In this document: positions 1 through 20,840 of the stretch, one piece after another
Position numbering within the stretch: the stretch's first letter is position 1
How the letters are laid out: every line of letters starts with the position of its first letter
Source of the DNA: a virus
IMG/VR virus record: IMGVR_UViG_3300008107_000879
Location: 1 to 21,019 of that record
Length of the DNA stretch: 21,019 nucleotides
Direction: 5' to 3' (one strand)
The notes under the pieces: model-generated
What the model was told of the DNA's origin: nothing
The model's database searches: none
Seen by the model: the letters and a program-made list of their open reading frames with translations, nothing else
Made by a program: the position numbers and the translations under genes

Positions 1-3000
1 TTCCTAACTCCTTCGTCTGCCAGTTTTGTTTTCTCTGCTTCAAGTGTTGTTTTTTGTGCGGCAACACCCTTAGCATTTAGGTCATACATACCCTTGCTTG
101 TGTAGGCTTTTGTTTGTGCATCCATTCCAGCACCAAATGCTTTGCCTTTACTAACTCCAGCAATTGCTGCACTAGAGGTTGTGGCTTTAACGCCAGAACC
201 ATTATTATCTTTGTCGTCTTTGCCATCTTTACCATTGCCACCAGTTCCACCAGTGCCACCAGTAGTAGGGTTGTATGGCTTTATAAGTGCCAAAGCCTGT
301 CCAGACTTAAGAACACTAGCCATGTGCTTTGCAGACTTGAGTGCATTTTGCTGAATGTTAAACTGGTACTGTTCTTCTTTAAGTTTGTATCCTGCAATCT
401 TTTCAGCATTACCTTCAAGAATTGCTTCTAGTTTTGTACGGTCAGTAAGAACACCATTAATACTAACCTCAATGCTTTCAAGTTCGTTCTTCCTAGCAGT
501 TTCTAGATTTGCTTTAGCATCTTCCAGGGCTTGCTTTTGAGAATTTTGTTGAGCCTGGAAAGCAGCCTTTGCAGCAGCAGCAATATCACCCTTTGACAGA
601 GCGTCTGCAAGTGTAAGAGTGTCTGCTTGTTTTTGGTTATTTCTATCTTGAAGTTTTCCAATTTCGTCAAGAGCCTTGGCACGAGCATTATACTTGTCGT
701 TAACTTTCTTTTCTTTAGTTGCAATTACGTCAAGACCAGCCTGATACAATTCATTGTCTTTTGCTAGTCTTTCTGCAGGAGTTGCAAGAACATAGGTAAG
801 ACCAATTTCACTCGCATCCTTAATTTCCTTCAACTTCTTTAGAAGTGCTCCAGCATTAGCCCTTAATTTACCAGTCTTCTTATCAACAATTCTATTCTGC
901 TCTTCTTCAGTACCGTTCATAAAGTCTCTAATAATTTCTGCATCCGCACCTTGAGCCTTCATCAATACTGCAATACCGCCCATTTGCTTGACTGCTGCAC
1001 TTCCGTACTTCATAATTGCCTTGTATGATGCATCCCAACCAACGGTGAGTTTTTGCTGCCAGTTGTTTGCTTCACGAAGCATCTTTACATATGGGTCAAG
1101 GATTGATGGGTCTGGACCTTGCTTTGTTGATGTGTCCTGAGCGGAACCTGGTCCAGTAGTATTGTCTACACCAAATGATGTAACTGTTCTGTCTGCTTGG
1201 TATGCCGCATAGTCAGCAAACGTAAGGCTCTTATTTCCTTGTTCACTTTGCCAAACCTTAAAGGCAGCCATCATATCTTTATCGCCCTTCATGGCAAGAA
1301 TTTGCTGAAGTTCTGTCATAAACACTACCTTATTTGCTTTATTGTATTTGTTAAAGGTTGCAAACTTAGACTTTAGTGCTGCAATACCGTCTTTACTTCC
1401 TTCTAAGAATTTAGTTGCAATAGGAAGAGTAATTGTCTTTTCCTTCTTTAGTTTTTCAATATTTTCATTAAACTTAATCATCTTGTCTTCATTTTGAATT
1501 GAGAAGTTTACAATTGCTTCGCTTGCCTTACCCTTAAAGACACCCCTGGTTTTGTTAGCAAGTTCTAGAGCATTGTTTGTTTGCATTAGTTTTGCAGGGT
1601 CCATAGTAGAAGCATCAGTTAGATATTTCTCTTTAAGTTTTGCGTCTGTAATGTTCGCTGAAAGACCTAGTGCACGGTTCGCTTCTACTGGGCTATTTGT
1701 AAGTAGATTAGTAAGGTTTGTCATACCCTCGGCTGAACCACCAAACACCTGTGAAGCAGTGTTTGCCTGACTAATTCCAAGTTGCTTAGTAGCAATAGCA
1801 GACTTAATAAAGTTTTCTTGTCCCTGAGTTCCAGCAGAATTGTCAATTGCTTCTCTTGCCAGTTTGGCTTGAGTCTCCATTCCAGTACCCTTGTAGGCTT
1901 CTTCAATAGACTTGTTAAGTTCGTCGCTTGTGGCAACCTGAGTATTGAATAGAATTCCCCAACCAGTGCTCTGGTCTTCAAGAGTTTTTAATAGTTCTTG
2001 GTTAGTCTTCTTGTTTGCTTCTAACAATTCTCCTTGGTCAATTAGATATTGATTTTCAAGTTTTGTAGCCTCTGCTATATCTCCAGCCGCACGAGCACTA
2101 GCAATTCTCTTTTCATAGGACAACTGTAATGAGTCAACCATTTGCTGCTCAACCTCTAGGGTATTTTGAATAGACTCAGAAAGTGCTGCAGCCTGTTTTG
2201 TAATCTGTTCTTGATACATAACACCTGCAATAACCATTCCAGTAAGTGCTCCAGCAATAGTTCCAATGATTGGAACTGCAGAACCTGCTGCTGCTAGACC
2301 AGCAATAATTGTTCCTGTTCCTGCAATTGCAAGACCGCTTCCAGCAAGAGCGGAGGCTCCAAGAGCCACTGCACCACCAACAGCAAGACCAGCACCTGCA
2401 CCAACAACAGCACCAGTAGCAGTACGACCTGCTTGAACACCATTGTTTGCTTCTGCTCCAGTCTGAGCCATTGCAGCGGCATTACCTCTAACCTGGTCCA
2501 TAGAAGACTCAATAATCTTCATTCTAACTTCTAGGGGGTCGTTAGCAAGGTTTTCACCATTAGGACCCATAATGTCTGTAAGGCTTGCAGAAACATTTAG
2601 ACCAAAGTTCATGTCGCCCATCTCTGTTCCTAGGTTTGCTGCAATACTTCTTGCCTGTGCAGGATTCATTACACCAGTAGCAATTGCTTCTGACAACTGA
2701 TTTGTAATTAATTTTTGTGCATTTTCAATTCCCCCACCCTTTGCAATTTCAGTATCAACAGATTTAACTAAGTCCTTACCTGCGTCTGTTTTCATATAGG
2801 ATTCACCGAAGGTTGTCTTACCCTGAACAATATTAAAGAACTGACCACCACTTGTTTCACGGCGTTTATCCATAGCCTCAGTACCAGTTACCTTTTTAGA
2901 AAACTCTGCAAACTTTGCCATTGCTTCATTGCTAGTACCCATCTTCTTTTCTAAATCAGACGATTCCTTGGCTAGTTTGTTAAGGTGTTCATTAATTTGG

Positions 3001-6000
3001 AATGCTGCAACACCAATAGCAGCAAATCCTGCTACCACCAATCCAGCAGGACCAGGGATTAGAGACATGGCTGTGGTGGCAGCACCGATTGGACCCATTG
3101 CTGCTTGAGCAGCCTCGCCAACCTTACCTGGAATAGTTGATGCTAGACCAGCAACAGTTGTAAGAGCATACATGGCAGACTGTACTTTACCAGTTGTTTC
3201 ATTTCTAGTAAACGCACCAGAAATTTTTCCAGCAAGACCCTTGCCAGCAAGACCTTTATCAAATCTAGCCTTTTCTTCCTTTGACATTTGGTCGTAACCA
3301 GCATTAACCCTCTTTTGATTGTCTGCAATTCTCTTGTTTTCTATTTCTTCTTGTTTTGCTCTTTCTTGTTCTTGCTTAATCTGTTTGCGAATTTCTTTAT
3401 CAGTTATCTTAGTTTCTTTAGTAACTTCAGCAACTCCGTCTGCTGCCTTGATAACTTTGTCTGCTGCTGTGCCTTGTAACTGTGACAGCCTTAATGCCTC
3501 TGCATCTTTCTTCTTGCTCAAATCATCCATTACCTTGACTGGTAGTGGACGACCTTCGTTATAGGAATCACCGATGTAGCCACCACCTTCGTAACCAATA
3601 ATTCCACCGTTAGCATACCCTGGAATATTGCCAGCAATCATTTGCTGAATAAGTGGGCGGTTCTTTGCTGCTGACTTAGCAGGAATAACAGCCTCGCCTG
3701 GAGACAGCATAGCAGGAACTACATCGCCAGCACCCTTTGGTCCTGGAACCGAGAACACTCCGTTGGCGTATCCAGGAATTGTTCCACCCATATTTAGTTT
3801 AAGTGGATTGTAAGTAGGAATACCAAGAAGACTAATAGCACCACGAGTCTTAGCCATGTCGTCATAGAATTCTTCAATGTCGTAGTACTTCATGTAAGCA
3901 GATGTTTTGTCATACTTCATCTGTTCTGGTTTGCGATAGTCTTTATCTCTTCTAGCAATGACCTTGATGCCGTTCATATCAATGCCAAGTTTTTGTAGGG
4001 TCTCAATAGTGTATGGCTCGTAGAAGTCTGGGCGAGCGGTCATAAGTAGAATCTTGTTGCCACGAGCCTGAGCAGCCTTTAGTGCAGCAAGACCTGCTGG
4101 AATTCCCTTCGGGTCTTTAGCAACTTCCTTGTACCACTTCTTTTTTTGGTCTTCTGGAAGTTTTTCGTTTTCTGCTTGGTGCTGTGCCATGAATGACGAT
4201 AGGTCAAGAAGGGTGTCGTCAATATCAAATACTGAGGCTTTTGGTTTGACGCTTCGTTTGCCGCCGACGTTGTCAGTTCCTTCTGCAAACTTTTGAGCAG
4301 ACATAAAAGCCTTCTCGTCAAAAACGTTTTGGTCTGATACTGAAGTAATACTAGCAAGCAATTCGTCGTAACTTGAAATACCAGTTAGTGAGCGTCTAAA
4401 CGAGCCTGGTGGGATAGACGAGCCACGAAGTTTAAGGTCTTCTGGCAGTGCTGCTGGTGCTGCTCCAGAAGCAATCCAAGATGCTCTTGACGATTCTTGC
4501 TGTGCTCTTTTTTCTGGTTTACTGCTAGAACTTGCTAATGCGAATCTTCCAATTTTTATTTTTGTTCCAGCAAAAACAACGTCTTTTCCATTTGGTGCAA
4601 ATTCTGCAATTCCAGATGCAAGAAGATGTCTAAGTTTTCCATCTGCATTTTTACCCAAATCTGCACGGATACTGCCTACGGTATTTGAACGCTCAAGAAG
4701 TCTGTTTGCTACTTCGGCGGAATCTCCGCCCATTGCAACAGAAGAGAAAAGTGCTTCTCTTGTTCCATCTGCCAAGATTGGGTCAATTACATTTTTACCA
4801 GCAGCCACTCTAACTGTTGTGCTACCAATTGTATCTTCAATTTGAGCAAGCGTATTATTTAGTCTACCTGGAACTCCAGCAGCCTTAGCACTTGAATTAA
4901 ACTTGCCCTGAATTGAGTTCCAAACTTTTTGGAAAATAGGAGGAACAATTCCACCCTTGCCAGGAATTAGTCTTTGATTGACCCAGGTTGGAAGGTCTGC
5001 TGTCAGGTTTCCAAGAACTGTAATATACTGCAGGTGTTCATCTTTTAGTCCTGGGTAAATTGCTTCAATCTGTGCTCTAACCGCAGGGTCATTTTTGTCA
5101 AGTTCTCTTTGTGTGTGTGATGCTTGAGTTAGACCTGCAAAGCCACCATCCTCAAACTTCTTTGGTGGAACTGCAGAGTGCATAACCTGATACTTAGCCC
5201 AGTCAACACTCAAACCTCCACGAAGTCTTTGTTGCATTGCCTGATAGGCAACTGTTTCTTCTGGTGACATTGGACCAAAGCCAGCAATTGTAGCATCAAG
5301 TTTTGGAATTACTTTTTGAATTTCAGCCTTCATGGTTGCATCGTATTCTGCAGGTGTCATCTTTGAAACCATTTCAGATGTTGCTTCAGCAAAGAATCTC
5401 TTAGCACCACCCTTTACACCAAGCAGGTTGATGATGGCTTGTTCTTCCATAGAGTTAATAGCACTACCGAGAGCACGTTTACCAGATGCTCTTCCAAATA
5501 CACCAGCAGTTCCTACGTCAGCAAGTACGTTGCCGCCAAGGTTTCCAACACCAAGGTCTTTATCTCCACGAAGAAGTGAGGCAACAAGTTGTGTAAAGTA
5601 TTGGTCTTGTGTGAATGTGTTTGGAATATCTGCAATTCTAGAATCAAGTGCTGACTCAAGAACAATAAACTTACGCTGATTCTCTGGGTCAGTTGGGTCC
5701 ATCATTACACGAATCTCTTGCTTCGGTGCTACAAGACTGTGAGCGTCACGAGCAATGGTTGTTCCACGGACTTCTGCTAGTGCAGACGTAAGGTCCATCT
5801 GTGGCTTAACAAATACCCTTGTTCCGTCTGGCTTTTCGTAGATACCTCCAACGCTAAATGCTGGGAATGAGTGTCCAGTAGTTGGAGAAATCTGGGTACC
5901 AAAATCAGTAGGTGGGACGTTTGCGTAAGGACCAGCCTTTACCTCGTCGCTAATTTCCTTTAGTTGTAGACCTGTTCTACCGAGTCCTTCTGTTTGCTTT

Positions 6001-8213
6001 TGTGTGAGTGGTCCATAAACACTCTGACGCATACCAGCACCAGTAGTACCATTTTCAAATCCAGGAAGGTTTCCTCTAACCATACCAGCAATTACAGGGG
6101 CATACTTCTTTGCATTCTTAGCAGGGATAACTGCTTCACCTGGAGATAGTAGTGCTGGAACAATATCTCCTGCACCTGCTGGACCAGGAACCATAGACAC
6201 ACCATTAGCGTACTTCTTTGGTGTCATTGCATTCGGGTTGCCCACAGGAACGTTTGGAACACCAGAGAATGCTTGCTGGGCTTGGATAGCATTTCTGTAT
6301 GCAGCAGTCAATTCATTTACAGCACCTGCTTCAGAAGTAAATGTTTGACGAAGTTTTGCGTGAGCCTGGTCAAGCGATGCTGCAATTGCTGCACCCTTAA
6401 GTTGTTCACTTGTCATATATCCTGTTTGTTCACCAAGGATGTCAGAAGGCTTTGTGGTCTTGTTTATGAAGCCCTTCATGTTTGTAAAAAGTTTCATAAT
6501 GTTTGCAACACCGTTGGCAATTAGACCAAATGTCATTAGCAGCAATGGACCAATACCAGCCACAGCAGTAACTAGAATAGTAATGAAAGATTTTGTTCCT
6601 TCACTTAGGTTATTAAAACCATCAAGTATTTTGGTAACAAATTCAATAATTGGTGTTACAGCCTTTAGAAATGCTTCTCCGACTGGAGCAAGTTTTGCTT
6701 GCATGTCTTGGATAGACTTTTGAAACTTGAACATTGGGGAGTCTGAAATCTTGCTTAATTCTCGTTCTGAAAGAACTGCCAATTCTTCTGTTGTTTGTTT
6801 TGCAAGTCCTGCAACAGTACTAGCCTGGCTGCCCTCTTTAATTACGTTCTGAAATAGTGTTGAAATACGAGAGAACTGAAACTTTCCAAACATTTGCTCA
6901 ATGGCACGAGCACGGTTAAGTGGGTCAAGGGTGTCCAAAGCCTTACCCATTTCAATAACAGTTCCCTTAACGTCCCCCTTGTTAGCCTCTACAATACCCT
7001 TGATGCTAATTCCAAAACTAGACATAAACTCTGATGCTTTTTTGCTTGGGTTGATTAGGGACGCAAGACCAGACTTAAGTGCGTTAGCACCTTCAGATGC
7101 ATTAATGCCACCTTCCTTCATTGCTGTCAGGAAGAATGTAAGGTCTTCTACGTCTCCACCGAGTTGCTGAATAACTGGTGCTGCTTTTGGAATAGCAATT
7201 GTAAGGTCTTCGATGGAAGTTACGGTTTGGTTTTCTACTGCGTTTAGGAAGTTAATCTTTCCAGAAAGGTCTTCGGTAGCAATACCAAATGCGTTAGTTA
7301 GTGATATTGTTGTTTCAAGTGCTTGGCTCTGGTCTACCTGACCCAATACAGCAAGTCTGCTTGCTTCAGAAATTTGAGCAAGAAGGTCTGCTCCAGTCTT
7401 ACCCATTGCAGCAGCCTTGGCTGCCATGTCCATAGTATCTGAAATGGCAACACCATATTTTGTAAATTCACTTGCAAGTTTACGAACATTGCCAACCATC
7501 TTTTCTGTTTCGTCTGACGTTGTGTTAATGTCTCCGTATACACGTCTAAAGGAAATAGAAGCCTTTTCAATTTCCATGTAGGCTTTGGCAGCAGCAGAAC
7601 CCATTAGGGTAAGTGGTACTGTAAAACCAACCATAAGTTGGCGACCAGCCCACTGAGTATTTTTACCAAAGTTTAGTAGGTTTGTAGAACCCTGTGTCAT
7701 TAGTTGATTAAATAGTTGCTGACGTTGTGCAGCCATCTGGGTTTTTGTACCCAAATTTTCCATGTCAAGGGCAAGCGGTCGCACGGCAATGGCTTTCATT
7801 GCACCATTAGCATCACGACCTAATTTAATGTATTGAGTCTGTAGGTCTTTTACTCGTTCACGAGCAACTTGGTTAATTGTTTCAAATTCAGATTTGAATA
7901 GTTTACCAAAAGATTTTGATGCTCCACCAGCATAGCGGAAGTACTCACCCATTGTGAGTTTGTTCTTTTCAAGTGCTCCTGTGAAACGTTCTGCACTTGT
8001 TTGGATTGTTTGAATGTTTGCTTGAAACTTGCCAGTTGCGTTAACTGAGTTTACAAGATTTTGCTGCATCTGTCTTGCAGCCAGTGCATTGTCTGCACCT
8101 GCTTTTCGCATGGCTTGCTGAAAGGCTGATATTTGCTGTTGCAAAAGTTTTAGTTGCGCCAGAGCATCTGACGTATCTATATTTACTTTTACATTGGATT
8201 CAATATCAGCCAT
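1..8213 (-). CDS. Tape measure protein, giant, with embedded enzyme-like domains (partial at left edge)
   Basis: One open frame runs from the ATG at 8213 to the window edge with no stop: 2737 complete codons, end not seen. Tape measure proteins set tail length and are ejected with the DNA. Residues 1-190 are helical and Gln-rich. Residues about 190-470 match the TP901-type tape measure core (PLTLMGSAAAKAYMEIEKA, then a conserved stretch ending near EQMFGKFQFSRI). A hydrophobic segment lies at about 545-578. Two 54-residue Gly/Pro motifs (669-722 and 1483-1536) bracket a kinase-like and a HAD phosphatase-like domain. Further hydrophobic Gly/Ala-rich stretches lie at 1681-1738 and 1932-1998. 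The C-terminal part is coiled-coil-like, with a Gly/Asp/Asn linker near 2650-2672. The gene follows the chaperones by 18 bases, the standard place, with only a weak GGTGTGG ribosome site. I see no peptidoglycan hydrolase motif in the visible part. The family call is firm; the domain roles are inference. Confidence 0.95.
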   Translation of the reverse strand, partial: MADIESNVKVNIDTSDALAQLKLLQQQISAFQQAMRKAGADNALAARQMQQNLVNSVNATGKFQANIQTIQTSAERFTGALEKNKLTMGEYFRYAGGASKSFGKLFKSEFETINQVARERVKDLQTQYIKLGRDANGAMKAIAVRPLALDMENLGTKTQMAAQRQQLFNQLMTQGSTNLLNFGKNTQWAGRQLMVGFTVPLTLMGSAAAKAYMEIEKASISFRRVYGDINTTSDETEKMVGNVRKLASEFTKYGVAISDTMDMAAKAAAMGKTGADLLAQISEASRLAVLGQVDQSQALETTISLTNAFGIATEDLSGKINFLNAVENQTVTSIEDLTIAIPKAAPVIQQLGGDVEDLTFFLTAMKEGGINASEGANALKSGLASLINPSKKASEFMSSFGISIKGIVEANKGDVKGTVIEMGKALDTLDPLNRARAIEQMFGKFQFSRISTLFQNVIKEGSQASTVAGLAKQTTEELAVLSERELSKISDSPMFKFQKSIQDMQAKLAPVGEAFLKAVTPIIEFVTKILDGFNNLSEGTKSFITILVTAVAGIGPLLLMTFGLIANGVANIMKLFTNMKGFINKTTKPSDILGEQTGYMTSEQLKGAAIAASLDQAHAKLRQTFTSEAGAVNELTAAYRNAIQAQQAFSGVPNVPVGNPNAMTPKKYANGVSMVPGPAGAGDIVPALLSPGEAVIPAKNAKKYAPVIAGMVRGNLPGFENGTTGAGMRQSVYGPLTQKQTEGLGRTGLQLKEISDEVKAGPYANVPPTDFGTQISPTTGHSFPAFSVGGIYEKPDGTRVFVKPQMDLTSALAEVRGTTIARDAHSLVAPKQEIRVMMDPTDPENQRKFIVLESALDSRIADIPNTFTQDQYFTQLVASLLRGDKDLGVGNLGGNVLADVGTAGVFGRASGKRALGSAINSMEEQAIINLLGVKGGAKRFFAEATSEMVSKMTPAEYDATMKAEIQKVIPKLDATIAGFGPMSPEETVAYQAMQQRLRGGLSVDWAKYQVMHSAVPPKKFEDGGFAGLTQASHTQRELDKNDPAVRAQIEAIYPGLKDEHLQYITVLGNLTADLPTWVNQRLIPGKGGIVPPIFQKVWNSIQGKFNSSAKAAGVPGRLNNTLAQIEDTIGSTTVRVAAGKNVIDPILADGTREALFSSVAMGGDSAEVANRLLERSNTVGSIRADLGKNADGKLRHLLASGIAEFAPNGKDVVFAGTKIKIGRFALASSSSKPEKRAQQESSRASWIASGAAPAALPEDLKLRGSSIPPGSFRRSLTGISSYDELLASITSVSDQNVFDEKAFMSAQKFAEGTDNVGGKRSVKPKASVFDIDDTLLDLSSFMAQHQAENEKLPEDQKKKWYKEVAKDPKGIPAGLAALKAAQARGNKILLMTARPDFYEPYTIETLQKLGIDMNGIKVIARRDKDYRKPEQMKYDKTSAYMKYYDIEEFYDDMAKTRGAISLLGIPTYNPLKLNMGGTIPGYANGVFSVPGPKGAGDVVPAMLSPGEAVIPAKSAAKNRPLIQQMIAGNIPGYANGGIIGYEGGGYIGDSYNEGRPLPVKVMDDLSKKKDAEALRLSQLQGTAADKVIKAADGVAEVTKETKITDKEIRKQIKQEQERAKQEEIENKRIADNQKRVNAGYDQMSKEEKARFDKGLAGKGLAGKISGAFTRNETTGKVQSAMYALTTVAGLASTIPGKVGEAAQAAMGPIGAATTAMSLIPGPAGLVVAGFAAIGVAAFQINEHLNKLAKESSDLEKKMGTSNEAMAKFAEFSKKVTGTEAMDKRRETSGGQFFNIVQGKTTFGESYMKTDAGKDLVKSVDTEIAKGGGIENAQKLITNQLSEAIATGVMNPAQARSIAANLGTEMGDMNFGLNVSASLTDIMGPNGENLANDPLEVRMKIIESSMDQVRGNAAAMAQTGAEANNGVQAGRTATGAVVGAGAGLAVGGAVALGASALAGSGLAIAGTGTIIAGLAAAGSAVPIIGTIAGALTGMVIAGVMYQEQITKQAAALSESIQNTLEVEQQMVDSLQLSYEKRIASARAAGDIAEATKLENQYLIDQGELLEANKKTNQELLKTLEDQSTGWGILFNTQVATSDELNKSIEEAYKGTGMETQAKLAREAIDNSAGTQGQENFIKSAIATKQLGISQANTASQVFGGSAEGMTNLTNLLTNSPVEANRALGLSANITDAKLKEKYLTDASTMDPAKLMQTNNALELANKTRGVFKGKASEAIVNFSIQNEDKMIKFNENIEKLKKEKTITLPIATKFLEGSKDGIAALKSKFATFNKYNKANKVVFMTELQQILAMKGDKDMMAAFKVWQSEQGNKSLTFADYAAYQADRTVTSFGVDNTTGPGSAQDTSTKQGPDPSILDPYVKMLREANNWQQKLTVGWDASYKAIMKYGSAAVKQMGGIAVLMKAQGADAEIIRDFMNGTEEEQNRIVDKKTGKLRANAGALLKKLKEIKDASEIGLTYVLATPAERLAKDNELYQAGLDVIATKEKKVNDKYNARAKALDEIGKLQDRNNQKQADTLTLADALSKGDIAAAAKAAFQAQQNSQKQALEDAKANLETARKNELESIEVSINGVLTDRTKLEAILEGNAEKIAGYKLKEEQYQFNIQQNALKSAKHMASVLKSGQALALIKPYNPTTGGTGGTGGNGKDGKDDKDNNGSGVKATTSSAAIAGVSKGKAFGAGMDAQTKAYTSKGMYDLNAKGVAAQKTTLEAEKTKLADEGVR
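2220..2420 (-). other. Glycine-zipper-like hydrophobic segment in the tape measure protein (residues about 1932-1998)
   Basis: About 65 residues consist almost only of Gly, Ala, Val, Ile and Leu, with small residues spaced as in glycine-zipper membrane helices, ending GMVIAGVMYQEQ. Two other hydrophobic stretches occur at residues about 545-578 and 1681-1738. Tape measure proteins often carry such segments, and some are thought to insert into the host membrane during DNA entry. Membrane insertion here is inference. Confidence 0.6.
3606..3767 (-). repeat. Gly/Pro-rich tape measure motif, copy B (residues 1483-1536)
   Basis: This second copy starts at ANGVFSVPGP, contains VVPAMLSPGEAVIPAK and ends NIPGYANG, followed by a Gly-rich linker (GGIIGYEGGGYIG). 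Together with copy A it brackets residues 723-1482, which hold the kinase-like and HAD-like domains. Confidence 0.85.
3780..4250 (-). other. HAD-superfamily phosphatase-like domain inside the tape measure protein (residues about 1322-1478)
   Basis: All four HAD motifs are present in order. Motif I is FDIDDTLLD with nucleophile Asp1330, acid/base Asp1332 and Thr1334. Motif II is LLMTARPD with Thr1392. Motif III is a lysine in the stretch RKPEQMKYDKT (Lys1428, Lys1433 or Lys1436). Motif IV is EFYDDMAKTRG with Asp1451-Asp1452. Spacing (62 residues from I to II, about 59 from II to IV) and the trailing LLGIPTYNP resemble polynucleotide 3'-phosphatase and acid-phosphatase-like HAD domains. The domain is in frame within the tape measure protein, just before the second Gly/Pro motif copy. 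HAD enzymes hydrolyse phosphate esters; the substrate cannot be read from sequence. Catalytic residues look intact, so activity is plausible. Confidence 0.75.
5484..5861 (-). other. Candidate kinase-fold core inside the tape measure protein (residues about 785-910)
   Basis: The translated segment reads like the nucleotide-binding core of protein-kinase-like, HipA-like or PI3/4-kinase-like folds. A Gly-containing strand turn (SVGGIYEKPDG, from S787) is followed by RVFVKP with Lys803, the beta-3 lysine candidate. Next come a helix with Glu814, a hinge-like KFIVLESAL, a helix QDQYFTQLVASLL, then GDKDLGVGN with Asp886 and Asn891 five residues apart as in catalytic loops. ADVG (Asp899-Val-Gly901) sits where the metal-binding DxG motif would. 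Helical sequence follows to about residue 1000 and could be the rest of a C-lobe. The assignment is by motif spacing only. It could be an inactive pseudokinase or a chance resemblance, and the substrate is unknown. Confidence 0.45.
6048..6209 (-). repeat. Gly/Pro-rich tape measure motif, copy A (residues 669-722)
   Basis: This protein-level repeat starts at ANGVSMVPGP and includes GAGDIVPALLSPGEAVIPAK, ending NLPGFENG. Motifs of the type PG.G.GD.VPA.LSPGE.VI are common in tape measure proteins. By my count it is identical to copy B at 37 of 54 residues with no gap. Synonymous positions have drifted, so the duplication is not recent. Confidence 0.85.
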
Positions 8214-8231
8214 TCAACCACACCGACTTTA

Positions 8232-8558
8232 TTAGCCGTTAATTAGACCACCCATTAGCGAGGCTTCGCTAAGTTTGATACCAGATGCCTCTTCGACAAT
8301 CTTGTATACGGTAGGAAGGTCTAGAAGTTCTTCCAGTGCCTTCAGGTCTGTTGCTTGTTCTGGAGCATACTGCTTCATAGCAATCTGCACACACTCCATG
8401 AGAAGAGTCATTGACTTCTCATTGTTGTCTGCTACTTCTGCGATACCCTCAAACTTTGTCATAAAAGGGCGAAGAAGTGAGATTTTTAGTGGACGGACAG
8501 AAATCTTTGTACCGTCTAGTAGTTCTACAGTTTTAGTTTCATTGATAGTTGTAGACAT
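8232..8558 (-). CDS. Tail assembly chaperone, short form (108 aa)
   Basis: This small protein lies directly upstream of the tape measure gene, the standard place for chaperones that coat the tape measure protein while the tail tube polymerises. Residues 11-96 align with residues 11-94 of the neighbouring 235-residue protein at about half identity by hand (shared VEL.DGT, PLKI, ECV.IAMKQY, DLPT.YKI). It lacks that protein's C-terminal extension, so it corresponds to the short G-like product that most phages make from a frameshifting gene. The ATG at 8558 is set by a strong AAGGAGG at 8563-8569. A TGn-type extended -10 lies at 8584-8592. No overlapping downstream frame exists into which a frameshift could extend it, because the tape measure gene starts 18 bases after the stop. 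Confidence 0.85.
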   Translation of the reverse strand: MSTTINETKTVELLDGTKISVRPLKISLLRPFMTKFEGIAEVADNNEKSMTLLMECVQIAMKQYAPEQATDLKALEELLDLPTVYKIVEEASGIKLSEASLMGGLING

Positions 8559-8562
8559 GAAT

Positions 8563-8569
8563 CCTCCTT
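8563..8569 (-). promoter_or_regulatory. Strong ribosome binding site of the short chaperone
   Basis: AAGGAGG lies four bases before the ATG at 8558. It contrasts with the long-form gene, which has no Shine-Dalgarno sequence, and may help set a short-form excess. Confidence 0.75.
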
Positions 8570-8583
8570 ATGGTTTCTAGTCA

Positions 8584-8592
8584 ATTATAACA
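8584..8592 (-). promoter_or_regulatory. Candidate extended -10 promoter for the short chaperone
   Basis: TGT-TATAAT lies in the 43-base gap between the two chaperone genes, about 25 bases before the start codon, giving room for a short leader with the ribosome site. No clear -35 box is visible. Confidence 0.5.
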
Positions 8593-8601
8593 TAAAGAAT
8601 G

Positions 8602-9309
8602 CTATTTTGAAACAACTTCGTACTCAAGACCCATGCCAATACCAAAGCCATATTGCTGTGCCTTCTGTCCTTGTAGAGATGTAATATCATTAGGGTCTCC
8701 GTTACCAATACCAGATACTTGTGACGCTACCCTGGCTTTCATGGCTTCCCAAGGGTCTTCGTTCTTAGTTCCACTTGCTTCATCTAGGTCTACGCCTTGC
8801 ATAGCAGCAAGGAACTTTTTTTCGTTGTAGTCCAATTCTCTTCTTGATTCAAGAATAGCCATCATTTCTGGCATAGATATATTACTCTCTAATTCATCAT
8901 AGTTCTTCCAGATTCCTAACAAGAATAGTTCTGATTCAAGTTTAACTAAATCAAGATTGTCCCAACTATTCTCGCTTTTAGATTTTGCAGTTTGTGGCAT
9001 AGGCTCGTTGGTATCTTCGCTTTTCTTAATTTTAACACCAGCACAAACATCGATAATCTTGTATATTGTTGGCAAGTCTACAGAGTCTTCCAAGTCCTCA
9101 ATTGTTTTAATTACTGGGTGGTATTGTTTCATTGCAATTCTTACGCATTCAGAGAGGATGGCAATAGACTCTTCGTCTGTCTTTGCCTCCTTGATAGTAT
9201 CGAATACGTCCATGAACTGTCTCATGTACTTGATTTTTAATGGTGAGACTTCTATAACTGTTCCGTCAACTAACTCAACTTCATCTATAGTGTATATTTT
9301 TGTAGGCAT
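8602..9309 (-). CDS. Tail assembly chaperone, long form (235 aa)
   Basis: Residues 11-94 form the same domain as the short chaperone. A charged linker follows at 95-113, then an extension (114-235) starting NSWDNLDLVKLESELFL. This is the arrangement expected of the GT-like product that links tail-tube subunits and the tape measure protein, but here the extension is in the same reading frame and no frameshift is needed. The gene lies between the major tail protein terminator and the short chaperone. No Shine-Dalgarno sequence precedes the ATG; instead TGG-TATACT ends six bases before it, consistent with a leaderless transcript. The role is assigned from position and from paralogy with the short form. 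Confidence 0.8.
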   Translation of the reverse strand: MPTKIYTIDEVELVDGTVIEVSPLKIKYMRQFMDVFDTIKEAKTDEESIAILSECVRIAMKQYHPVIKTIEDLEDSVDLPTIYKIIDVCAGVKIKKSEDTNEPMPQTAKSKSENSWDNLDLVKLESELFLLGIWKNYDELESNISMPEMMAILESRRELDYNEKKFLAAMQGVDLDEASGTKNEDPWEAMKARVASQVSGIGNGDPNDITSLQGQKAQQYGFGIGMGLEYEVVSK

Positions 9310-17780: not shown

Positions 17781-20700
17781 CTATTCCATACCAGTGAGTG
17801 TCGAAAGTACTGGGTTTGCTACAGAATATTGCTTAGTATTAAACGAGTTAGTTCCAGCAAAATATAGATATGATGAATCCAAAACCTGAAGTTTTGTTAA
17901 AACGTGGTCATTGTTTGACAAATTAGTAACTCCTACATAGGAATTATAAGCGTCTGAGGTGTTTGACTTAAACACAGACAATATAACATCTTGCCAGGTT
18001 ATTCCTGTAAGGTCTTGCCACTTACCAGGAACATATCTTTGCCAAGTATTGCTAGAGGATAGTGCTGCCAAGTTTGCATTGATTTGATAGAGAATAAGAT
18101 TATCTATTGTTAAATATCCTGTTAGGTCAAACTGACCAGTAATTCCATTCAGGGATAGTGCTGTTGGGAACATTGCTGAAATGGTTACCCATGTGTTTAC
18201 GTTAAATGTGTTTGTCTCAATACCGTCGATGTAGAAAATAACGTTGGTACTTACAAGACCAGTACTTAGGTCAGTTGCCGATATTCTAACGTCTTCTGAA
18301 TTAGAAGATACTGTCGAAAGACTAAATCTATAATTAAAGTTAGAACTGGCAACATCAAATACGTTTTCTGTGCTTGACTGCAAAGTATATGCTGATGTTG
18401 CTGTGTTGTATGGAGTATCGTATTTTGCAGCAAACTGTATAGCACCCAACTTATAGTCTGAAGTTGCTTGTGGATTGATTGGAAATCTAAGTCCACGATT
18501 TGTTATTCCAGATACCGCACCTGGGGCTAATCTAATTCCACTACTTGAACTCAAATAAAGGTGTGGACTTGGTTTCTTGCTAATAATATAAGGATTCTTG
18601 CCAGCATAGTTATAGGTTCTACTTGATATAACATTCGGAGTTGACTCTGTATATGTAAAAGGAATTATTGTTCCTCCAAATTTAGTGGTAATTGGATTGG
18701 TAACATTTTGATAATAATTATAGGCTACCGAAAAAAGGTCAAGATACTGAATCTTTGGGTAGTTAGACAATGTATCAATTACCTGAAATTCTGTGTGAAC
18801 AACAATACAGAGTTGTGATAAGTCTGGGTCTGTTGGCGGATAAACAATCACACCGTCGGCAACCTCATACTTTGTTGTTTGCCAAGAAGTTCCTGCTCCT
18901 GGGCTAATCGTTAGGTTTAACGGTATTGATTGAGTAGTGGTGAAGGTTGAGTCTGGTTGATACGGATTGCTTAATGGCTCAAATGTAATATATGTTCTTA
19001 CCATTGTTGTAAGCAAGTTAAGTGAAGAGTTTGCAAAACCACTATATCTTCCTGTATTTAGATTAGATGAAGTTCTTGATACTGGTGCATCATAACCCAC
19101 ATTAAACTGAAGAAAATCAAAGTCGTAACCAACATTGCCAGAAACATCTGTAACTGTTTGAGAAAAGTTCTTAAGTGGAATATGGCTTTTCCAAGACCCA
19201 CCAGAGTTTGAGACAATCTTATTGTCAAACATTGTAACTTCATAACTAGCCATTACGTTTTGAAGTCCATTTAAAATAGTTCCACTTGTCTCAGTTCCAG
19301 ATGGGAAGTAGAACACTCCATCTGTCCTTACTATTGTTTCTCCAGATATAGGGTTTGTTCTTCTTGAAAGATTGTCGTCTGTTAAAAATTTAATAGAAAG
19401 AATGTCTGCTACTGATGTGTCGTCATTTGCCAAATTGCTATCTCCAGCAATAAAGACAACAATTCTAGACTGATTGCTAAAGAAGTTAGCAACATTGCTA
19501 CCATAGTTGTTGGCAAATTTGTCAATATCAATTCCAACATTGAAATAGTAGTAATTTGGACTTCCAGTAATAAGGCGTATGTTGTCTGCTGGAGTTTCTG
19601 TCTTTAAGGTAGACAATGTTCCATTATAAGATAACTTATAATAGATTGTTCCAGAGTTTACAGAAATTGAGAAATAATTTGCTGTATTTATGTCTACAAA
19701 TTTAAATATAATTTCCTCTGATGTTGGTCTTGTAGTGTTATATCTTCCATAAAGATAAAATGCCTTTATAGGTTCTTCCAGTATTTCCATAGAGTCAAAT
19801 GAGAAATTTGATACTAGCCACCCTGCCTGTTTCAGATTTATCTTTCCTGTTGCATTCAGGTCTGAGATTGTTTGTGTTCCAGTGGTATTAAGTGTTGGCA
19901 AAGCATATTTATTTACAGCAATGTAGTTTTTTGCTATCGTCAGATTGTCTGACACACCGCTGCTCCAGGGGGCATTTGTTGGAAACTTATACTCATTAGA
20001 AAATCCAGAACTAGAAAAATCTACAGACGCTACATTTCCTGCAGCAGAACCAATAGTGTTTTCAATTGTATTTACGGCATGTGCTTTTGCAAATCTAACT
20101 TGTGCCTGTGATATGCTAACTCTATATGGGAATATTGAAATACAATCATATATTCCATCATTAAAGGAGATGTAGTCAGTCATTGAATTTGCATCCCCTG
20201 CTGTTGCTAGGGATGGCTCTGCTAACAATGCTAAATCGTCACTATCTATATCCAGTGATATTAAGACTTCTCCGTTAACCATCAATAAAACATTTTCCGA
20301 AGAGTAAACTATGTGAATCAATAGTGGTCTATTAAAGTCCTTAAAGTGATGGCTGCCAGTTTTATTTCCAAACTTAAGAACAAATGATGTACTGTTTACA
20401 TAAAGTCCATTAGTGTTTACTAAATCTGCAAATGAGGAAACAACCTTTGTAAGTGTGTTGTTGATTGGTTTTTTAATTTGAGTCCAAAACTCAAGGGTTA
20501 GGTTTCTATATGTTCCTAGTGTATTTAAAAATCCAAATGCTGGGAAAATCAATCCATCGTCTGTGTTAAGGAATTTAGTTGAATTAAACGAACCATAAAT
20601 AACTGGTTTTGTGTTTACTTTGGTTGTCGATGTTTTCACATAGCCTGGATAGCCTTTTAGATTGTATGGTGCAAGCAAATGAACAGCATCGCTCATAGTT

Positions 20701-20840
20701 CCATCAATTGGTGCTGTGTTTCCATATAAATAATATATATCTACAATTGGTGTTGTCGTAAAATCTTCATCAATTGCCCATGTTGCGATTGATTGTTGTG
20801 ATAGCACGAAGTTAGCATAGGAATTTATTTTGGTAGCCAT
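17781..20840 (-). CDS. Large LamG-like structural protein, probable tail fibre or virion surface protein (1019 aa)
   Basis: Residues about 80-256 look like a concanavalin/LamG jelly roll: LTLEFWTQI (115-123), IHIVYSSENVLLMVNGE (175-191), then YDCISIFPYRVSISQAQVRF (231-250). The rest is a long beta-rich, Ser/Thr/Asn/Tyr-rich chain with Gly-poor repeats and a C-terminal part containing KWQDLTGITWQD. Such proteins bind glycans or form fibres and head decorations. The position, upstream of the portal and far from the tail tip genes, is unusual for a tail fibre. The coding is visibly more AT-rich (many ATA, TTA, AGA codons) than the portal and capsid genes. The gene stands alone between a terminator-promoter pair and the next promoter. 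The jelly-roll call is by pattern only. Confidence 0.7.
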   Translation of the reverse strand: MATKINSYANFVLSQQSIATWAIDEDFTTTPIVDIYYLYGNTAPIDGTMSDAVHLLAPYNLKGYPGYVKTSTTKVNTKPVIYGSFNSTKFLNTDDGLIFPAFGFLNTLGTYRNLTLEFWTQIKKPINNTLTKVVSSFADLVNTNGLYVNSTSFVLKFGNKTGSHHFKDFNRPLLIHIVYSSENVLLMVNGEVLISLDIDSDDLALLAEPSLATAGDANSMTDYISFNDGIYDCISIFPYRVSISQAQVRFAKAHAVNTIENTIGSAAGNVASVDFSSSGFSNEYKFPTNAPWSSGVSDNLTIAKNYIAVNKYALPTLNTTGTQTISDLNATGKINLKQAGWLVSNFSFDSMEILEEPIKAFYLYGRYNTTRPTSEEIIFKFVDINTANYFSISVNSGTIYYKLSYNGTLSTLKTETPADNIRLITGSPNYYYFNVGIDIDKFANNYGSNVANFFSNQSRIVVFIAGDSNLANDDTSVADILSIKFLTDDNLSRRTNPISGETIVRTDGVFYFPSGTETSGTILNGLQNVMASYEVTMFDNKIVSNSGGSWKSHIPLKNFSQTVTDVSGNVGYDFDFLQFNVGYDAPVSRTSSNLNTGRYSGFANSSLNLLTTMVRTYITFEPLSNPYQPDSTFTTTQSIPLNLTISPGAGTSWQTTKYEVADGVIVYPPTDPDLSQLCIVVHTEFQVIDTLSNYPKIQYLDLFSVAYNYYQNVTNPITTKFGGTIIPFTYTESTPNVISSRTYNYAGKNPYIISKKPSPHLYLSSSSGIRLAPGAVSGITNRGLRFPINPQATSDYKLGAIQFAAKYDTPYNTATSAYTLQSSTENVFDVASSNFNYRFSLSTVSSNSEDVRISATDLSTGLVSTNVIFYIDGIETNTFNVNTWVTISAMFPTALSLNGITGQFDLTGYLTIDNLILYQINANLAALSSSNTWQRYVPGKWQDLTGITWQDVILSVFKSNTSDAYNSYVGVTNLSNNDHVLTKLQVLDSSYLYFAGTNSFNTKQYSVANPVLSTLTGME

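Follow-up and report, generated by a model that had tools for sequence, protein, structure and literature searches.

The locus studied here raises the question of why the tail tape measure protein (TMP) of a phage should carry a kinase-like and a phosphatase-like domain between two copies of a Gly/Pro-rich repeat. The DNA analysed, hereafter the window, is a stretch of 21,019 nucleotides (IMG/VR virus record IMGVR_UViG_3300008107_000879, positions 1 to 21,019). Its longest gene was identified as the TMP gene because of a PhageMin_Tail match (PF10145, E 2.1e-24), matches to phrog_10030 (E 1.4e-100) and many other TMP PHROGs, and the gene order; these matches also bear out the view, taken in a preliminary description of the sequence, that the flanks of the enzyme segment are TMP. 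The genes run portal, protease, capsid and tail tube, then small ORFs placed as chaperone genes would be, then TMP, which is the order found in Streptomyces phage Bmoc. The features of the TMP (residues, r) and its upstream neighbours are as follows.

8232..9309 (-), two small ORFs in the tail assembly chaperone position, directly upstream of the TMP as in Bmoc
3..8213 (-), TMP ORF of 2737 aa, its C-terminus truncated by the contig edge
6234..8213 (-), N-terminal TMP core (r1-660), holding the PhageMin_Tail match at r245-443
6048..6209 (-), repeat 1 (r669-722), a Gly/Pro linker with the VPALLSPGEAVIPA motif
5133..5963 (-), atypical protein-kinase-fold domain (r751-1027), predicted from an AlphaFold2 model and structure comparison
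4284..5114 (-), MID module (about r1034-1310), helical for the most part, with a few strands
3786..4259 (-), HAD phosphatase domain (r1319-1476), with motifs at D1330/D1332 (DxD), T1392 and the D1451 region
3606..3767 (-), repeat 2 (r1483-1536), the second 54-aa copy
2055..3218 (-), C-terminal TMP core (about r1666-2053), with a hydrophobic segment at its start and kept across the family

The portal gene is preceded by a 1019-aa ORF (17781-20840, (-)) that is beta-rich in appearance, belongs to no Pfam or PHROG family and is matched by none of 50,697 phage records. An Rfam search gave no match.

The repeats were placed exactly to the residue in the preliminary description: the copies align ungapped over 54 aa with 37/54 identical, and 760 aa separate them. 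The pair has an ungapped BLOSUM62 score of 206, and since the runner-up self-match within the TMP scores 48, the similarity does not arise by chance. Both copies are mostly of low confidence in the AlphaFold2 model, and repeats and linkers are likely to be flexible.

The kinase-like domain belongs to no Pfam family, CotH, HipA and PI4K included, and by sequence it has no significant match in the PDB, yet the fold initially proposed was upheld by an AlphaFold2 model (pLDDT 92, pTM 0.90) with the two lobes of a kinase, and by its structural relatives. These are CotH (Z 12.0, rmsd 4.0, 217 aa), CtkA (Z 10.6), PI4KII (Z 10.1), HipA (Z about 9) and Fam20C, the best aligned relatives all being atypical kinases; Foldseek alone gave a weak signal (best E 1.8e-3). 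The domain is not a member of the CotH, HipA or PI4K family proper, and the likeness is at the level of the fold only. Kinase-fold matches in BFVD include phage proteins that go, by name only, as ADP-ribosyltransferase or portal. No relatives of the kinase were found in 50,697 annotated phage records, where a match in Shewanella phage S0112 covers the repeat only. Two scans of 84,980 species genomes with strict patterns returned pattern matches with none confirmed, which is weak evidence of absence.

The HAD phosphatase-like domain, also recognised initially, is corroborated by Pfam (Acid_phosphat_B, E 2.5e-14; PF03767, E 3.4e-15), by PHROG (polynucleotide kinase, E 1.3e-12) and by structure, the closest match of its model being the 3'-phosphatase of T4 PNKP (Z 16.7, rmsd 2.3 over 133 residues), followed by Nir2/lipin-type and acid phosphatases, including class C. 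As modelled, the domain has the PNKP-type/class C acid phosphatase fold with a DxD motif. A pattern scan of IMG/VR found no HAD relatives outside the TMP group studied. A classical PNKP, in which a P-loop kinase stands beside the phosphatase, was considered and rejected because the fold on the kinase side is protein-kinase-like. The suggestion that the pair repairs nucleic-acid ends is tenable as far as the HAD fold goes, but no P-loop polynucleotide kinase accompanies it.

Conservation of the motif residues is pronounced. In the kinase, K803, E814, Q832, D884, D886, N891, D899 and G901 are unchanged in 76/76 copies compared, at identities down to about 40%; the roles of K803, E814, D884/D886, N891 and D899 (Lys, Glu, catalytic Asp, Asn, metal Asp) are assigned by pattern rather than from a solved structure. 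Such invariance is as would be expected of an active enzyme. The catalytic Asp residues of the HAD domain are likewise unchanged in 15/15. Both observations argue against a purely structural or neutral role, in which the segment would be a spacer or decoration suited to tail length or packing and the enzyme folds mere building blocks; the wide length variation of complete TMP ORFs (e.g. 2565 to 4062 aa) would suit this explanation, which we nevertheless regard as very improbable.

Relatives were collected in four viral scans of IMG/VR, the first three of which yielded 108 different TMP ORFs (plus or minus one for the window's own). The N-terminal core is almost unvarying in length, with 80-91% identity across most of the close set and 62% in L022. 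Among members in which it is intact, it spans about 660 aa and is almost constant, as is repeat 1 at about r660-745, and the stretch that separates this repeat from the C-terminal core ranges from 293 to 2083 aa. The content of this bay in the 108 ORFs is either no recognised enzyme, kinase alone, kinase with HAD, or kinase and HAD with a GNAT-like and an ART-like domain; a nucleotidyltransferase, ART-like domains and a second kinase-like domain also occur. The GNAT-like call is weak (Pfam E 0.0013, under the curated cut-off), as is the motif-based ART-like call, for which there is no Pfam match. The arrangements include the following.

TMPs without kinase: repeat-MID-C-core
L061: repeat-kinase-repeat-MID
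L072: repeat-kinase-HAD-repeat-MID
L048: repeat-kinase-HAD-GNAT-like-ART-like-repeat-MID
L106: repeat-cytidylyltransferase-like-repeat-MID (PHROG E 1e-8)
L020 and L099: kinase-MID-HAD with ART-like domains
L102: a second kinase-like domain, by motif only
L017: three copies of an unnamed domain
L147 and others: repeat-MID-kinase, without a second repeat

The unnamed domain of L017 (r1661-2616) measures 175-180 aa, occurs up to three times within the bay and is also seen in L033 and L068. In a distant TMP clade (L049, L054, L055 and L067) the kinase lies at about r1250-1400 and other modules precede it. In tblastn searches of annotated phages, neither the GNAT-like nor the ART-like nor the nucleotidyltransferase cargo gave a match, and PDB sequence searches with the L106 and L102 cargo returned nothing useful.

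The preliminary description had envisaged one inserted or exchanged cassette, to be recognised by relatives that lack it. Modular content was indeed found, and relatives lacking cargo keep one repeat, but the interval consists of several modules rather than one unit, and the close relatives all keep the kinase while MID and HAD vary independently of each other. On a tree of the N-terminal core (105 rows) at least 7 changes are needed for presence of the kinase and at least 4 for that of HAD, gain and loss being indistinguishable. The MID module, modelled with a pLDDT of about 90, is also found in many TMP relatives without kinase. On sequence comparison, r1031-1310 between kinase and HAD is a separate, fast-swapping third module: on either side of MID the window and L003 share about 80-100% identity, and within it about 30-40%. 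This divergence indicates that modules within the interval are exchanged too.

Where the exchanges take place can be followed in close pairs. L115 and L048 are 87% identical through the end of the first repeat; L115 has a single repeat and no recognised cargo, whereas in L048 a further stretch of about 1000 residues follows, then a second repeat that shares 85% identity with the first, after which homology resumes. The DNA identity of L116 and L115 (88.7% over 5.9 kb) stops 14 nt short of the repeat end, with none beyond. Between HAD linker and repeat 2, L068 has exactly 194 codons more than L093, with the reading frame kept, and L101 and L102 carry different domains in the stretch that runs from a short GGxVPGYSGGT linker to repeat 2. 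The first DNA break past the N-terminal core falls within a repeat in 172/381 close pairs, which are non-independent, and in 22/54 of a reduced set, repeat 1 with its margins making up about 1/10 of the span from repeat to C-terminal core. Many breaks outside the repeats fall at the end of the kinase. Taken together, these comparisons support in-frame module exchange at or near the repeat linkers.

It is plausible that the repeats themselves drive the recombination. The breaks define module borders rather than a mechanism, because a conserved N-terminal unit beside a mosaic region also puts breaks there. The repeats may accordingly be passive, with breaks at this point since the mosaic region starts there, and this account, which concerns the exchange mechanism only and is compatible with any of the functional readings, is a real if lesser possibility. 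It would agree with the presence of repeat 1 in nearly all members with an intact N-terminal core, with the occurrence of the motif in TMPs of unrelated cultured phages, and with a DNA identity of only about 54-75% between repeat copies inside one genome. It fits less well with breaks inside the repeat (about r702-713) and insertions that abut repeat 2 precisely, or with the repeat subtypes, since GPGTGTSDS or VPGPxGAGD is common to the repeats of one genome, yet orthologous repeats may differ between genomes. The original proposal of exchange through the repeats is thereby backed by DNA breakpoints at repeats and qualified by the absence of a second repeat in many members and by the commonness of the motif in TMPs. 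A large survey of mosaicism in phage proteins left genuine recent mosaicism of TMPs unconfirmed (PMC10684548), and the in-frame presence or absence of domains and the allele swaps described here are candidates for it.

The repeat is, on sequence evidence, a general and ordinary TMP motif. At E values up to 1 it was matched in 201 annotated phage records, with tape measure genes in all the best rows. Most family members have a weaker copy close to the C-terminus; many are without the second repeat or without any recognised enzyme. Bmoc has no repeat immediately past the N-terminal core, and the homology of its C-terminal core to the family is too weak for a full empty-site comparison. In cultured phages, copies of the repeat flank an SLT domain in the TMP of Gordonia phage Yeezy (L184) and an NlpC/P60 domain in that of Mycobacterium phage DyoEdafos (L187), which offers a tractable model. 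The family of the window therefore employs an architecture found elsewhere, with cargo of another kind: wall hydrolases there, and here kinase, HAD and other domains whose expected substrates are cytoplasmic.

The reading we favour, with modest confidence, is that the TMP holds a cargo bay from which ejected enzymes modify the host cytoplasm early in infection; the exchange of modules rests on comparison, delivery and function on inference. The bay lies between the fixed N- and C-terminal cores, Gly/Pro repeat linkers connect its enzyme domains, and comparison shows that these domains come, go and are exchanged at the linkers or close to them, with the frame kept. In the phage of the window it contains the atypical kinase, MID and the HAD phosphatase. 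The TMP would lie in the tail lumen with its cargo threaded or compacted and be ejected on infection, and the cargo may then refold in or at the cytoplasm of the actinobacterial host. Hosts are probably Actinobacteria because whiB scores above the curated cut-off in the contigs of 13/20 relatives. Kinase and phosphatase could there add or remove phosphate on proteins of the host, on nucleotides or on the ends of nucleic acids, conceivably in the service of takeover or counter-defence.

A folded kinase would hardly fit the tail lumen, and this counts against a cytoplasmic cargo. So does the fact that, to our knowledge, the TMP enzymes described to date act on the cell wall. The domains could instead act in the envelope at entry, modifying wall polymers or membrane proteins and staying out of the cytoplasm, as would suit a repeat that also flanks SLT and NlpC/P60 domains. 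The kinase moreover matches CotH and Fam20C and the HAD domain class C acid phosphatases, families with some secreted enzymes. We consider action in the envelope unlikely: relatives of the kinase fold are ATP-dependent and ATP is scarce beyond the membrane, and the ART-like, GNAT-like and nucleotidyltransferase-like domains of the relatives would use cytoplasmic co-substrates.

Action in the producing cell, through a TMP polyprotein cut before or during assembly or through domains that are tail-assembly factors, has a precedent in lambda gpH, which is processed while the tail assembles, and the predicted flexible repeats and linkers could contain cleavage sites. It appears less probable still, as no protease site was identified, excision of the bay would divide the ruler in two, and the loci examined showed no copy standing on its own.

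Cytoplasmic delivery is favoured because of the cofactor needs of the enzymes, the fold likeness of the kinase to phage proteins named ADP-ribosyltransferase or portal, and a report on the lambda TMP, according to which TurboID-ManZ, a bait in the inner membrane, labels this protein by proximity and the defence nuclease SNIPE associates with it while injection takes place (PMC13190303).

Earlier work already covers the principle, both for multi-enzyme proteins that are injected (PMC5512222) and for effectors derived from TMPs (PMC11126660, PMC13277306). Polyvalent proteins of phages and conjugative elements combine several enzymes and, by prediction, are injected along with the DNA (Iyer et al. 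2017, PMC5512222), and their repertoire, like that of the present family, includes ARTs, kinases, GNATs and nucleotidyltransferases. Several disparate enzymes per polypeptide, as in polyvalent proteins, are likewise present here, with kinase and HAD in the window and the weakly called GNAT-like and ART-like domains added in L048. The carrier here, however, is the TMP, a term absent from the text of PMC5512222, and the domains, among them a PNKP-like HAD where that text mentions no phosphatase, sit in a fixed, repeat-bordered bay. The TMPs of Yeezy and DyoEdafos resemble those of the family in having an enzyme between copies of the same repeat. The effectors Tme (PMC11126660) and Sle1 (PMC13277306) similarly join a TMP-like carrier to a variable functional domain, but belong to bacterial contractile injection systems (CIS) and have this domain at the C-terminus, in contrast to the internal bay of a phage TMP. 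Polymorphic toxins and phage MuF/portal fusions share a virion or secreted carrier with exchangeable enzymes and differ in the carrier and in the internal position found here. Virion-borne enzyme cargo with the TMP as carrier is the best label, and in the literature covered, mostly papers outside subscription, no description of repeat-bordered exchangeable kinase/phosphatase cargo in phage TMPs was found.

One may tentatively go further and regard siphophage TMPs as a general, reloadable platform for effector delivery, in which cytoplasm-acting enzymes in a repeat-linked internal bay are exchanged between phages; we hold this to be nearly an even matter. If the cargo does enter the cytoplasm, a protein that is among the most widespread in phages would turn out to carry effectors, and close phage pairs that differ only in cargo offer a clean test.

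Two further loci deserve mention. In L084 the TMP frame is broken inside the kinase, giving two ORFs, by a frameshift, an assembly error or a true break. In L043 an ART-like domain (r3161-3290) is flanked by two repeats near the C-terminus, where it may mark a second bay.
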